A DNA stretch of 23,830 nucleotides, taken from positions 1 to 23,830 of the IMG/VR virus record IMGVR_UViG_3300025098_000291; one strand, 5' to 3'. This document shows, one piece after another, positions 12,224 through 17,986 of the stretch; the stretch's first letter is position 1, and each line of letters begins with the position of its first letter. Made by a program: the position numbers and the translations under genes. This stretch comes from a virus. Below the pieces are notes generated by a model. That model was not told the origin of the DNA and did no database searches. It was given only the letters and a program-made list of their open reading frames with translations.

Positions 12224-12273
12224 GAATAAGGTACAATCCCTAATAGTATATTATTAGTGTTAGTACCCTATTC
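12224..12273. repeat. 50-bp imperfect palindrome
   Basis: The two 25-base halves, 12224-12248 and 12249-12273, pair at 20 of 25 positions around one exact centre (between 12248 and 12249). Outer arms are GAATAAGGTAC and GTACCCTATTC. The inner 18-base core, CTAATAGTATATTATTAG, has a single mismatch. It lies 55 bp upstream of the leftward -35. CCCTAATAGTATA at 12238-12250 recurs exactly over the -10 of the SSB promoter (4484-4496). Reasonable readings are a dimer-bound operator, a cruciform at an origin, or a further weak leftward promoter (TATACT at 12245-12250 on minus). Confidence 0.75.
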
Positions 12274-12300
12274 AAATCCTTATGGTAAACACACGTCAAA

Positions 12301-12540
12301 ATTACATAGGTGGTTATCCTGCAAAACACAGGTGGCTACCACACCGATACACACACTTGCAAATCCTGGGAGGCGAACAGAACGAACAAGGAATATTCCT
12401 GTCGCTCCCTGGCAAACTGTTAGGAATCCCCCTGGCAAACTCCCCAGAAAAATTTATTCAGGTAGGCTCAGAGGGGAGGGGAGGGGGGACAGCCCCGTTA
12501 GGATTATTGTGGTAGCCTCCCAGATACAAAATAGGTGGTT
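12301..12540. other. GC-rich, hairpin-prone block (possible structured RNA or origin)
   Basis: Clearly richer in G and C than its flanks. It includes a long imperfect hairpin at 12365-12412 (CCTGGGAGGCGAACAG against CTGTCGCTCCCTGG). It also has a 12-bp perfect palindrome AGGAATATTCCT (12389-12400), a 12-base direct repeat CCCTGGCAAACT (12407-12418 and 12430-12441), and a G-run GGGGAGGGGAGGGGGG near 12473-12488. GGGGACAGCCCC forms a small hairpin at about 12485-12496. Distant arms GGCTACCACA (12334-12343) and TGTGGTAGCC (12508-12517) are perfect complements. Open frames here give low-complexity, unconvincing proteins. Confidence 0.55.
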
Positions 12541-12712
12541 TTTGGGCATTTTAATTGGCGAAACTAACGAAAAAAGAAAGTAAACTAACTTGTTGTTTTT
12601 ATTATTGGTTATTATTTATTTGTCTAGGACATTAAATGGACAGATTGTCACGAAGTGTGAACCGTACAGAACGATACGAAGTATGATAATACCACCACAG
12701 TTTTTTCGTAGC

Positions 12713-12749: not shown

Positions 12750-12778
12750 TTGACTTTTGTAAAAAAATATGCTATAAT
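12750..12778 (+). promoter_or_regulatory. Main rightward (late) sigma70 promoter
   Basis: TTGACT (12750-12755), a 17-base spacer ending in TGC, and a perfect TATAAT (12773-12778). The 23 bases 12764-12786 are identical to 19981-20003 at the second rightward promoter. Transcription would begin near 12785 and read into the small basic genes. Confidence 0.85.
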
Positions 12779-12933: not shown

Positions 12934-13119
12934 ATGGCTGTTAAAAAAGCCAAGTCAACAGTAAATAAAGCTGGTAATTATACCAAACCTACCATGCGTA
13001 AAAACCTGTTCAATAAAATAAAAGCAGGTACTAAGGGTGGTAAGGCTGGTCAATGGTCTGCTCGTAAAGCCCAGATGCTCGCTAAGGAATATAAAGCTAA
13101 AGGTGGGGGCTACAAGTAA
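12934..13119 (+). CDS. Small basic conserved phage protein, 61 aa
   Basis: Lysine/glycine-rich protein: AVKKAKSTVNKAGNYTKPTM, RKNLFNKIKAGTKGGKAGQW, SARKAQMLAKEYKAKGGGYK. Highly similar short proteins are, from memory, common in marine phage genomes, with no established function. The strong positive charge and conserved WSARKAQ-type helix suggest DNA binding, perhaps condensing genome or host DNA. The ATG follows GAGAGGGG by 4-6 nt. Its stop overlaps the next start (TAATG), so the two are coupled. Confidence 0.8.
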   Translation: MAVKKAKSTVNKAGNYTKPTMRKNLFNKIKAGTKGGKAGQWSARKAQMLAKEYKAKGGGYK

Positions 13120-13361
13120 TGGCTCTCAAGAAACCACAGAAGTCCCTGAAGAAGTGGACTAAACAAGATTGGGGTACAAAGTCAGGTAAGAAATCTAGCA
13201 AGACAGGTGAACGATATTTACCCAAAGCAGCTAGACAGGCTTTATCCGCTAAAGAATATGCAGCTACTACTCGTAAGAAACGAGAAGACACAAAGAAAGG
13301 TAAGCAGCATAGCAAGCAACCTAAAAAGATTGCAGCTAAAACAAGAAGACATCGCAAATAA
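13119..13361 (+). CDS. Basic DUF5872-like protein, 80 aa
   Basis: Lysine-rich protein with KKWTKQDWGTKSGKKSSKTG, ERYLPKAARQALSAKEYAAT and TRKKREDTKKGKQHSKQPKK in order, then an Arg/Lys tail (TRRHRK). This matches my recollection of the DUF5872 family of phage and algal-virus proteins, whose role is unknown. The composition again points to nucleic-acid binding. Start and stop coupling with the 61-aa gene (1-nt overlap) suggests they are made in equal amounts and may act together. Confidence 0.75.
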   Translation: MALKKPQKSLKKWTKQDWGTKSGKKSSKTGERYLPKAARQALSAKEYAATTRKKREDTKKGKQHSKQPKKIAAKTRRHRK

Positions 13362-13508: not shown

Positions 13509-14588
13509 ATGAAGAAACTACTGATTAACTTACGTTACTTGTTAGCACCAGCCTCGATTAGTTTGGCACTCTACGGAGTGGTTCAAGGAGGTGTATTGTC
13601 GTGGCTAGGTGTTTTTATGCTAGGTGCAGCGATTATTGTTGACACGTTAGTTAAAACACAAACAAAGGGCGCAGGCTTTGATGATGATGGAGAAACCAAT
13701 GGAGTAGCATGGTTTCAAAATACAGTCATGTACGTCATGCTCCCACTATTTATCTGCCTACAAATTGCCCTAGCCGTTCAGGTCAGTGCGTTTATGGCAG
13801 GAGCAGCATCACTAACTGAGTTAATTGGTTGTACTCTATCCGCAGGTATCTTTCTTGGTATCGGCATAATTTACGGTCACGAGCTAGCACACACCAAAGG
13901 GTTCTCCTTTACTATTGCTAGACTAATGATGGCTTTAAGTGGTAAGGCACACTTCTGTTACGCGCATGTCTATAATCATCACTTAGAGTTGGGACACCAA
14001 GATGACCCAGCAACATCTCCTCGTGGTCGTACCCTTTATAAGCACTACCCGTTGTCAGGCTTAGGTCAATCTAAGTTTCTCTTTATGATGGAGAAGCAAA
14101 GATTAGAGCGACTAGGTAAGCCTTTCTTATCGCACCACAATCGCTGGTTGACTGGTTACGCTATGTCGTTACCAACCATTGCATTGTTCTGGTTCGTAGG
14201 TGGTTGGGCAGGTATGGCAGTATTAGCTACTATGTGGTTAATCAGTAACTTTGAATTAGAAACATTAAACTACTTAGAGCACTATGGTCTTTACAGAGAA
14301 AAGGGTCAGCCTATTGATTATCGTCACAGTTGGGATAACTCTACTGCTTTCTCAAGCTGGTTCTTTATCGAGATTGGAAGGCAGGGCGACCACCATGACA
14401 GAGGCGAGACGCATTTCTGGGAGCTAGATGAGGTAGGTGCACCAGATACAGGTCATGGTTACTTCCAGCTATTTGCTTTAGCCCTAATGCCAAAGGTCTT
14501 CTTTAAGATGATTAATGAGTCCCTAGACAAGTGGGACAATGAGATGGCATCAGAAGGTGAGTTGAAGATAGCTCAACAAGTTAAGTGA
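13509..14588 (+). CDS. AlkB / fatty-acid-desaturase-superfamily membrane di-iron oxygenase
   Basis: Integral-membrane enzyme of the alkane 1-monooxygenase (AlkB/XylM) type, 359 residues, with about six hydrophobic helices (roughly 12-48, 72-122 and 214-246). Histidine motifs in order: HELAH (His124, His128), HVYNHH (His153, His157, His158) followed by DDPATSPRG as in the EDPASS of AlkB, NYLEHYGL (His258, the AlkB HYG motif), and RQGDHH (His295, His296). AlkB has RHSDHH at this last place, so one iron-ligand His is Gln292. RHSWDNS before it also matches AlkB. Family members hydroxylate alkanes or modify fatty acyl chains using O2 and rubredoxin- or ferredoxin-supplied electrons. No electron carrier gene is in the window, so host partners would be needed. 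AAGGA lies 7 nt before the ATG. Its substrate is unknown. Confidence 0.85.
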   Translation: MKKLLINLRYLLAPASISLALYGVVQGGVLSWLGVFMLGAAIIVDTLVKTQTKGAGFDDDGETNGVAWFQNTVMYVMLPLFICLQIALAVQVSAFMAGAASLTELIGCTLSAGIFLGIGIIYGHELAHTKGFSFTIARLMMALSGKAHFCYAHVYNHHLELGHQDDPATSPRGRTLYKHYPLSGLGQSKFLFMMEKQRLERLGKPFLSHHNRWLTGYAMSLPTIALFWFVGGWAGMAVLATMWLISNFELETLNYLEHYGLYREKGQPIDYRHSWDNSTAFSSWFFIEIGRQGDHHDRGETHFWELDEVGAPDTGHGYFQLFALALMPKVFFKMINESLDKWDNEMASEGELKIAQQVK

Positions 14589-14791
14589 AGGTTGCAATCA
14601 TAATGGTAATTGTCTTGGGGTTAGATGGTAAGTTTGACACCAAGACTACCGTTCAAGACGAATGCCCAGACATGAACGCATTGGTAGAGCACTTAGAGAT
14701 GATGAAAGAATCTAAGGCTATAAAGGACTTTGGTGCTGTGTGTATACCAGCCCAATTTAAAGAAGAACAAATAGAAGGGATACCACTTTGA
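14585..14791 (+). CDS. Hypothetical small protein, 68 aa
   Basis: Starts with GTG in a GTGA overlap with the stop of the AlkB-like gene. A short hydrophobic start (MKVAIIMVIVLGLDGKF) is followed by a soluble part with two cysteines (QDECPDMNALVEHLEMM, GAVCIPAQF). The hydrophobic stretch is short for a membrane anchor and may be a beta strand, so the protein may be a small alpha/beta fold. Tight coupling to the oxygenase gene hints at, but does not show, joint function. Confidence 0.6.
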   Translation: MKVAIIMVIVLGLDGKFDTKTTVQDECPDMNALVEHLEMMKESKAIKDFGAVCIPAQFKEEQIEGIPL

Positions 14792-15987: not shown

Positions 15988-16395
15988 ATGACTGACGAAA
16001 AAGCAGTTCCCAAACGCAGGGGTAGACCGCCTAAGAAAGCCATACAAGCAAAGAAGAAACCCGGTAAAGTAGGAAGACCTGCTGGAGATGCAGCAGCTAT
16101 AGCAGATTACAAAGCTAGACTCCTTGCTTCACCTAAGTCTCGTAAGGTGCTTGACTCAATACTCAATGCAGCACTTGATGACGAACATAAGAATCAAGCA
16201 GCAGCATGGAAGCTATTAGTAGATAGACTTATGCCACTATCTTACTTTGATAAAGATAAGATGGGCGGTGGTAAGTCAGCAGTCAACATTACTATTACTG
16301 GTGTTGGCGGTGATACTACTATTATTGGCGATAAAGAAGACGCACTTGAAGGTGAGTTTATAAATCTTAATCCAACGGAAGGAGAGCAAGAGTGA
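15988..16395 (+). CDS. Probable small terminase subunit with AT-hook-like motifs
   Basis: A 135-residue protein. The N-terminus has two GRP cores in basic sequence (KRRGRPPKK and GKVGRPAGD), which can bind the minor groove. A helical middle follows (RKVLDSILNAALDDEHKNQA, AWKLLVDRLMPLSYF) and then a glycine-rich, acidic end. DNA-binding start, oligomerising helices and a position two genes before the large terminase make the DNA-recognition subunit of the packaging motor the best guess. Small terminases diverge so much that this rests mainly on context. There is no space between it and the holin-like gene. Confidence 0.6.
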   Translation: MTDEKAVPKRRGRPPKKAIQAKKKPGKVGRPAGDAAAIADYKARLLASPKSRKVLDSILNAALDDEHKNQAAAWKLLVDRLMPLSYFDKDKMGGGKSAVNITITGVGGDTTIIGDKEDALEGEFINLNPTEGEQE

Positions 16396-16739
16396 GATAC
16401 TTTACTATAAAGGAGTTTGACTGTCAGGAAACAGGACAGAATCAAATGAAACGTGACTTTTTAGATAAGTTAGATGAACTCAGAGATGCTTGTGACTTTG
16501 CTTTTGTTATTACATCTGGATATCGCTCACCTATCCATAGTGCTGAAGTAGATAAGCCTAACGGGGGTGGCACTCATACGGAAGGAATAGCTGCCGACAT
16601 ACGAGTTAGAAACGGCACTGAGCGTATGATTATTGTGCGTGAAGCAATCAAACTAGGCTTTAATGGTATTGGTGTAGCCAAAGGTTTTGTGCATGTAGAT
16701 ACCCGTAACGCACCTCCTGTTATGTGGACTTATAGTTGA
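16392..16739 (+). CDS. Peptidase M15-type endolysin
   Basis: A 115-residue zinc peptidase of the M15 D-Ala-D-Ala carboxypeptidase family, likely to cut peptide crosslinks of peptidoglycan at lysis. Substrate-binding motif SGYRSPIHSAEV comes first. Zinc ligands follow as His62 and Asp69 (GGTHTEGIAADI) and His101 (FVHVDTR), as in family members. There is no signal peptide, so it should need the holin to reach the wall. The start is GTG in a GTGA overlap with the small-terminase-like gene, and its stop overlaps the TTG of the large terminase. Placing the lysin between the two terminase genes is unusual but not unique. Confidence 0.85.
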   Translation: MRYFTIKEFDCQETGQNQMKRDFLDKLDELRDACDFAFVITSGYRSPIHSAEVDKPNGGGTHTEGIAADIRVRNGTERMIIVREAIKLGFNGIGVAKGFVHVDTRNAPPVMWTYS

Positions 16740-17986
16740 GCACAGATTTAAATATTAAACTGTTACCGTGGCAACAAAAAGTCTGGGACAGTAAAGCTAG
16801 ATTTAAAGTAGTAGCAGCAGGACGAAGAACTGGTAAGTCTCGCATGGCTGCTTACTTACTTATATTTTATGCACTGCAAGTAAAACAAGGGCATGTGTTC
16901 TATGTAGCACCAACACAAGGACAAGCCAGAGACATTATGTGGCAAAATTTACTTGAGATAGGTCATCCTGTTATTAAGAGTAGTCACATTAACAACCTAC
17001 AGATTACACTTATCAATGGTGCAACTATATCATTGAAAGGTGCTGACAGACCAGAGACTATGCGTGGTGTGTCACTAAAGTTTCTAGTAATGGATGAGTA
17101 CGCAGACATGAAGTCTAGCGTGTGGGAACAAATCCTAAGACCAGCGTTGGCTGACCAAAAAGGTACAGCTTTGTTTATTGGTACACCTATGGGTCGTAAC
17201 CATTTCTATGACTTGTATAAGTATGCAGAACTAAAAGAAGATGATACTTACGAGTGCTGGCATTTTACTTCCTACGATAACCCATTACTAGACCCTAAAG
17301 AAATAGATGCAGCTAAGAAGTCAATGTCTAGCTTTGCATTTAGACAGGAGTTTATGGCTTCCTTTGAGGCACAAGGTTCTGACATATTTAAAGAAGAGTG
17401 GATTAAATATAGTGAAGAAGAACCACAGGTAGGTAATTATTATATAGCTATTGATATGGCTGGTTTTGAGGAAAGTCCTAAAAGTAAAAAGTCTAGGCTT
17501 GATGACACAGCAATAGCAGTAGCTAAGGTTAGCGAACACGGTTGGTGGATAGCTGACATTATACATGGTAGGTGGACATTTGAAGAAACCGCTAACAAAA
17601 TATTTGAAGCAGTAGAAGAATATCAACCAGCAGCAGTAGGAATAGAAAAAGGTATTGCTAGGCAAGCCATAGTATCTCCACTTGCTGACTTAATGAAACA
17701 ACGTAATAAATTTTTTCGTATAGAAGAATTAACACACGGTAATAAGAAAAAGACGGACAGAATAGTAGCAGCCTTACAAGGTAGATTTGAGCATGGTGCT
17801 ATTACTCTAAACAGGGGGTCTTGGAACTTACAGTTTTTGGACGAGTTATTTCAATTTCCTAACAAACAAGTACACGATGATTTGATAGATGCTCTGGCTT
17901 ACATAGACCAGTTAGCAAACATATCTTACTTTTATGACTACGAACAAGACTCTTTTGAACCAATAGATAATTACGCAGGATACTAA
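16736..17986 (+). CDS. terL: Terminase large subunit
   Basis: The packaging ATPase and nuclease, 416 residues. The ATPase domain has Walker A at residues 28-35 (AGRRTGKS) and Walker B (FLVMDEYADM) with catalytic Glu. A GTPMGRNHFYDL coupling motif follows. The RNaseH-like nuclease domain has YIAIDMAG, an acidic middle (VGIEKGIARQ) and HDDLIDALAYI near the C-terminus. The start must be upstream of Walker A. The only in-frame candidate that fits is TTG at 16736 (TTGA overlap with the endolysin), because the next ATG lies after the P-loop. The gene is followed after 2 nt by the portal gene. Confidence 0.95.
   Translation: MSTDLNIKLLPWQQKVWDSKARFKVVAAGRRTGKSRMAAYLLIFYALQVKQGHVFYVAPTQGQARDIMWQNLLEIGHPVIKSSHINNLQITLINGATISLKGADRPETMRGVSLKFLVMDEYADMKSSVWEQILRPALADQKGTALFIGTPMGRNHFYDLYKYAELKEDDTYECWHFTSYDNPLLDPKEIDAAKKSMSSFAFRQEFMASFEAQGSDIFKEEWIKYSEEEPQVGNYYIAIDMAGFEESPKSKKSRLDDTAIAVAKVSEHGWWIADIIHGRWTFEETANKIFEAVEEYQPAAVGIEKGIARQAIVSPLADLMKQRNKFFRIEELTHGNKKKTDRIVAALQGRFEHGAITLNRGSWNLQFLDELFQFPNKQVHDDLIDALAYIDQLANISYFYDYEQDSFEPIDNYAGY

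Follow-up and report, generated by a model that had tools for sequence, protein, structure and literature searches.

What does an oxygenase gene resembling alkB do among the late genes of an ocean phage? AlkB/XylM-type oxygenases start hydrocarbon breakdown, and the original prediction for this locus, made from the DNA alone, was an alkane hydroxylase acting late in infection, either on host membrane lipids or hydrocarbons, perhaps in aid of lysis, or with host rubredoxin so as to keep an alkane-degrading host fed. The window analysed here, a stretch of 23,830 nucleotides, is in its entirety one virus record (IMGVR_UViG_3300025098_000291), and the oxygenase open reading frame was confirmed at 13509-14588 on the plus strand, where it encodes a protein of 359 residues. 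As detailed below, this protein is a XylM/AlkB-like membrane di-iron oxygenase of a subfamily in which Gln replaces one of the iron ligands.

The oxygenase gene in its phage genomes

The window has its replication module on the minus strand (family A DNA polymerase, helicase-primase, 5'-3' exonuclease and the small subunit of ribonucleotide reductase) and, on the plus strand, a late block that includes endolysin, terminase, portal-like protein and capsid protein. PHROG and Pfam matches confirm the predicted position of the oxygenase gene in this late block, between two genes for small basic phage proteins (12934-13119, +, phrog_17747; 13119-13361, +, phrog_14910) and the genes encoding the endolysin (16392-16739, +, Peptidase M15, phrog_894) and the terminase large subunit (16736-17986, +). 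Its stop codon is overlapped by a gene encoding a 68-residue protein (14585-14791, +), which lacks Pfam and PHROG matches, is neither a rubredoxin nor a ferredoxin and, in phages of the window type, is encoded either 5' or 3' of the oxygenase. A sigma-70-like sequence with an extended TG (TTGACT-17-TATAAT, 12750-12778, +, 11 of 12 matches) is presumed to be the late promoter, a tentative assignment because such sites are no commoner in the region than in shuffled sequence. The stretch at 12257-12583, which lies between the divergent gene blocks, is G-rich, contains only overlapping mechanical ORFs and looks non-coding; it might be the site of an early/late control region.

A first scan of viral contigs yielded 33 loci with relatives, and a second retained 80 of the 198 loci that it saw. 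Two contigs from other metagenomes match the window almost perfectly across the edges of the gene (L002, 99.8% identity over 10.6 kb; L027, 99.98% over 5.4 kb), and more than 20 window-type contigs share one gene order around it. That the gene belongs to the phage, as predicted, is thus borne out; the opposite view, that host DNA was misassembled into a viral contig, could appeal to cellular homologues with up to 69% identity, but is already refuted by these independent contigs and is further at odds with a 40.5-kb contig with overlapping ends that carries the gene. The dN/dS ratios between the window copy and the seven nearest relatives tested range from 0.046 to 0.084 which, together with intact homologues in many independent contigs, excludes a chance match to the motifs. 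Judged from these sequences, the gene is intact, viral and under strong purifying selection.

Two contigs deserve a comment of their own. One window-type contig carries a frameshifted oxygenase copy (L031:10001-11079), which reflects either an assembly error or real decay; the other copies checked alongside it read through. In the 40.5-kb contig IMGVR_UViG_3300046169_000059 (L018/L019), the two ends have about 1.68 kb in common (98.4% identity), a stretch that contains the oxygenase gene; the contig is either an almost complete genome of about 38.7 kb or an assembly of mixed strains.

Altogether, at least three phage backbones have the gene, each time in a late or virion region, and the late position noted in the window therefore recurs in unrelated phages. 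The first backbone is the window type, represented by 27 contigs with shared window-type neighbour genes; the second consists of T4-like phages in which the gene lies between those for the major capsid protein and the tail tube; the third consists of T4-like phages in which it lies beside the neck and sheath-stabiliser genes. Pelagibacter phage Mosig, whose capsid protein is 80% identical to that of the second backbone, displays an 89-base gap at the oxygenase site. The gene is likewise absent from 32 terminase relatives of the window phage for which upstream sequence is available, and is therefore optional in that lineage.

In a tree built with cellular homologues, the phage clades are nested in a gammaproteobacterial family. 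They adjoin different gammaproteobacterial clades, indicating several transfers between bacteria and phages: viral labels require five changes and cellular labels six, of which well supported branches force four to five (at least four), with the root and the exact order of transfers left unsure by the very long branch leading to XylM and AlkB. The terminase and capsid proteins of the window phage have only distant isolate relatives, and it is from the oxygenase tree alone that we infer a gammaproteobacterial host for this phage. Host-derived, intact, under selection and located inside a phage genome, the gene has the properties by which phage auxiliary metabolic genes are recognised.

An AlkB fold with a Gln in the third histidine box

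The protein scores 96.4 bits against the Pfam FA_desaturase profile (PF00487; curated cut-off, 29.7), and its sole solved relatives by sequence are two AlkB structures (E 7e-29 and 2e-26). An AlphaFold2 model built from 25 relatives (pLDDT 80.7, pTM 0.83) matched in the PDB, using Foldseek, only the AlkB structures 8f6t (E 3.7e-10, TM 0.77) and 8sbb (E 1.2e-8, TM 0.80); no stearoyl-CoA-type (SCD1-like) desaturase fold was present among these matches, and none of the viral models in BFVD convincingly shows an AlkB fold. The expectation that the protein is closer to AlkB than to desaturases is therefore upheld. Membership in AlkB proper is not: XylM matches the protein as well as AlkB does, aligning over its whole length (29% identity, 353 columns) with 128 bits versus 110 bits for AlkB from a marine plasmid, and one ligand of the second iron, Fe2, is replaced. 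The protein is an AlkB-fold membrane di-iron protein, yet it belongs to a separate subfamily, which we found in 81 viral and 75 gammaproteobacterial proteins. NCBIfam holds no model for either this protein or XylM.

The motifs HELAH, HVYNHH, DDPATS, NYLEHYGL, RHSWDN and DHH follow one another in the predicted order, which complete phage relatives keep, small substitutions aside; the claim that all AlkB landmarks are present fails only at the third box, which reads RQGDHH instead of RHSDHH. In the alkane hydroxylase FtAlkB, the iron ligands are nine His, among them His311 on Fe2, and one Glu (PMC10113152). On the Fe1 side, the ligands H124 and H128 of the first box (H124-E-L-A-H128, 13878-13892, +) align with H137 and H141 of FtAlkB; in the second box (H153-V-Y-N-H157-H158, 13965-13982, +), H153 and H158 are assigned to Fe1 and H157 to Fe2. 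E257 and H258 of NYLEHYGL (14277-14282, +) correspond to E271 and H272 of FtAlkB on the Fe2 side. In the third box (Q292-G-D-H295-H296, 14382-14396, +), Q292 takes the place of H311. The ligand table shows that the eight other iron-binding His, including those of the first two boxes and H258, are invariant in all 156 proteins of the subfamily, that the position of E257 is occupied by Glu in 81/81 phage and 70/75 bacterial proteins (Gly in the five others), and that position 292 is Gln in 81/81 viral and 75/75 gammaproteobacterial proteins, the third box being RQ[G/A]DHH across the subfamily. XylM, AlkB and the next homologues outside the subfamily, four more distant proteins (27-34% identity), all have His at the first position of this box. 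Gln292 thus characterises the subfamily and is no lesion of the phage gene.

Both known enzymes resemble the phage protein in part. XylM from the TOL plasmid pWW0 has a similar size and a similar C-terminal tail (WD..ASEGE / WD..ATPGE), aligns end to end, and works with a XylA-type reductase, which is found here in the bacterial relatives and not in the phages; it differs in keeping the third-box His (NHINHH) and in having a Gln where the subfamily has the Glu of NYLEHYGL. FtAlkB (8f6t, 8sbb) shares the fold, the first two His boxes, NYxEHYGL and the HSW motif, but has His in the third box, as well as Arg residues for docking its partner that are mostly lost here, where the partner is a reductase and not rubredoxin.

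All nine His are reported to be indispensable in GPo1 AlkB (PMC10110569), and the Gln could therefore cripple classical AlkB chemistry. A Gln in the third box is reported to be essential in front-end acyl desaturases (PMC6130074; PMC12405942), so that replacing His by Gln need not mean a loss of function. Those desaturases share the Gln of QxxHH with the phage protein, but have a different fold of their own and a cytochrome b5 domain, and the likeness would be convergent. Note that the model supports the AlkB fold as a whole and is least certain at the third box, with pLDDT below 50 at residues 289-309.

A host reductase as the probable electron donor

FtAlkB docks rubredoxin through six Arg. 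Reading the sequence alignment to FtAlkB, two of the six positions are positively charged in the phage protein (K130 and R201), and the four others are a Phe, a Tyr, a Pro and a deletion. The bacterial relatives have another partner, a XylA-like [2Fe-2S] NAD(P)H reductase that shares 38% identity with XylA itself and whose gene adjoins the oxygenase gene in many loci. Scored in 274 genomes of one class, this reductase is present in 14/14 genomes with the oxygenase gene or a near homologue of the Gln-type gene versus 1/260 others (Fisher p 1e-22; p 5e-15 for the 10 Gln-type genomes alone), p-values that overstate independence, given the relatedness of the genomes and our own choice of thresholds. 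In three genomes (G001, G044 and G185), the oxygenase gene is solitary and the reductase is encoded elsewhere. Rubredoxin is present in 8/12 host-type genomes; neither it nor a Fer2 protein was found in 11 phage records, many of which are fragments, and phage loci contain no electron-donor motif. We therefore discarded rubredoxin, which the original prediction had proposed as the donor, as well as a donor encoded by the phage itself. The bacterial reductase link and the lack of a phage-borne Fer2 protein or rubredoxin together suggest that the phage enzyme most likely runs on the host reductase.

The strict link to an electron-transfer partner also bears on whether the protein is an enzyme at all. 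The loss of one of nine ligands, along with nearby genes for a truncated globin, a peroxiredoxin and an IscU-like protein in some loci, could mean that catalysis by the di-iron protein is altered or abolished and that it is retained for a different purpose, for instance the handling of O2 or iron; with the other His ligands invariant in 156 proteins and purifying selection strong, we regard this as most improbable.

The gene neighbourhoods of the bacterial copies vary. The oxygenase gene is often the first in an operon whose other genes encode varying combinations of GST-like proteins, a small membrane protein, a truncated globin and a [2Fe-2S]-FAD-NAD reductase, in place of which SAR86-type loci have a protein from that cluster with the length of a ferredoxin. 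The GST assignment is weak (GST_C, 28.6 bits), the GST-like genes lying in tandem in the operon. Solitary copies are flanked by genes for FabA and a MerR/B12-type regulator with no adjacent GST genes, and one clade has an OmpW porin close by. A 500-residue protein that ends one operon type looked FadL-like by eye, but had no Pfam or NCBIfam match and was dropped as a candidate outer-membrane hydrocarbon porin.

Marine gammaproteobacteria harbour up to several copies of the subfamily per genome. The chromosome OX638335.1 has two copies without a single difference in their 1122 bases (L035:6001-7122 and L037:6001-7122). The identity stops within 10 bases upstream and 21 downstream and the operon contexts differ, a pattern suggestive of gene conversion or of a very recent duplication restricted to the gene; another genome, G049, also has two equal-scoring copies. 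In sponge-symbiont-like genomes, a second AlkB-like protein, of the His type, of 712-832 residues with a long C-terminal part is encoded about 4 kb from the Gln-type gene (L058:10985-13120, L062:9430-11880, L063:10163-12661).

Candidate substrates and role in infection

If the protein were a true alkane 1-monooxygenase running on host rubredoxin and keeping an alkane-degrading host fed, the AlkB fold and motifs, including DDPATS and NYLEHYGL, would be accounted for, as would E257, which is as in AlkB where XylM has Gln. Against this stand the Gln at an Fe2 ligand position in every member, the two positive docking positions out of six, a XylA-like partner and the patchy rubredoxin of host-type genomes. 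The bacterial operons weigh in the same direction: no alcohol or aldehyde dehydrogenase was recognised among their recurrent neighbour families, unlike the xyl operon, which carries such dehydrogenases for benzyl alcohol and benzaldehyde, and a catabolic role is disfavoured for that reason. Several of the bacteria bearing the gene are titled as sulphur-oxidising types. The alkane substrate and the alkane-degrading host of the original prediction thus lose ground, and we hold this explanation to be very unlikely.

An oxygenase acting on an alkene or aromatic compound, with a reactive product such as an epoxide cleared by glutathione, would fit the operon of oxygenase, GST-like, XylA-like reductase and small membrane protein genes seen in many bacteria, and the OmpW porin nearby in one clade; the GST-like partners do point to a reactive product. 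The GST match is weak, though, solitary bacterial copies have no adjoining GST genes and phages carry the oxygenase alone, which makes this possibility an unlikely one.

A hydroxylase, epoxidase or desaturase modifying membrane lipids or fatty acids, and thereby altering host membrane properties late in infection, is a plausible candidate, if still somewhat short of even odds. The third-box Gln also marks front-end acyl desaturases, although the likeness is convergent at most, and a role in membranes has been proposed for desaturases of viruses; the fold is that of AlkB and not of the SCD1 desaturase. Other hints come from gene neighbours only, namely FabA and the MerR/B12-type regulator at solitary oxygenase genes of bacteria and, in 15 phage contigs, a Lipase_3 gene no more than about 6 kb away. 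These neighbours are circumstantial, differ between phage groups and do not occur in the window phage. The Lipase_3 contigs, 15 of L139-L168, form one T4-like group (e.g. L154:8547-9356) whose members also encode phosphoribosyl pyrophosphate synthetase and, in some cases, an IscU-like protein. Separately, uroporphyrinogen decarboxylase and a probable 5-aminolevulinate synthase are encoded in oxygenase-bearing phage contigs (L162:5626-6603, L159:6341-7519).

Taken together, we propose, with a probability of about 0.7, that the gene is an auxiliary metabolic gene encoding a XylM/AlkB-type QxxHH oxygenase that borrows the host reductase to oxidise a membrane-dissolved substrate late in infection. 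The phage protein would insert into the host membrane and receive electrons from the XylA-like reductase of the host, phages carrying none; its di-iron site would activate O2 and insert oxygen into, or desaturate, a hydrophobic membrane-dissolved substrate, the likeliest being a lipid or a small hydrophobic compound of the host membrane. The phage copy would perform the same reaction as the host copy and sustain it late in infection. The sequences directly back the fold, eight of the nine His and the Glu, the gammaproteobacterial origin, the transfers, the selection, the late position and the reductase link. As to the substrate, a lipid or fatty acid is favoured over an alkane taken up as food; most weight goes to an oxygenase of lipids or hydrophobic metabolites and little to alkane feeding or to lysis, a role that the analysis neither supports nor contradicts. 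A UfaO-like furan fatty acid oxygenase was considered and rejected, UfaO being an unrelated DUF1365 protein.

We know of no biochemistry or reaction for the Gln-type subfamily. A bolder claim, which we advance tentatively and would doubt as a whole, is that of a distinct Gln-site class with a chemistry of its own and a XylA-like reductase, common in several groups of ocean phages, where it would serve late membrane-lipid remodelling or the detoxification of hydrophobic compounds, and spread by phages among themselves and gammaproteobacteria.

Desaturases of cyanophages were reportedly described by Roitman et al. in 2018. Fatty acid desaturases have also been found in viruses from Arctic brine and sea ice, with a proposed membrane role (PMC7300359), and in Baikal viruses (PMC7678222). 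Such viral desaturases belong to the same Pfam superfamily as the phage oxygenase and are thought to act on membrane lipids, but models of the Arctic proteins were based on the fold of stearoyl-CoA desaturase (PMC7300359) and the phage oxygenase has that of AlkB. A pelagiphage-like scaffold with a fatty acid desaturase and a 5-aminolevulinate synthase (PMC11480375) suggests that a member of the subfamily has perhaps already been seen as a desaturase, since some of our loci carry an aminotransferase-class gene read as 5-aminolevulinate synthase. In the part of the literature covered, we found no report of such an AlkB-fold or Gln-type enzyme, or of phage alkB-like genes.

Surveys of seawater that use alkB-like markers may count members of this subfamily, viral copies included, as alkane degraders, and the subfamily makes the effect of a His to Gln replacement on the AlkB di-iron site testable. 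If our proposal is true, an AlkB/XylM relative with a rebuilt iron site would be a regular component of several groups of ocean phages, and these viruses would influence a type of O2-dependent oxidation that is absent, as far as we found, from the listed viral metabolic functions.
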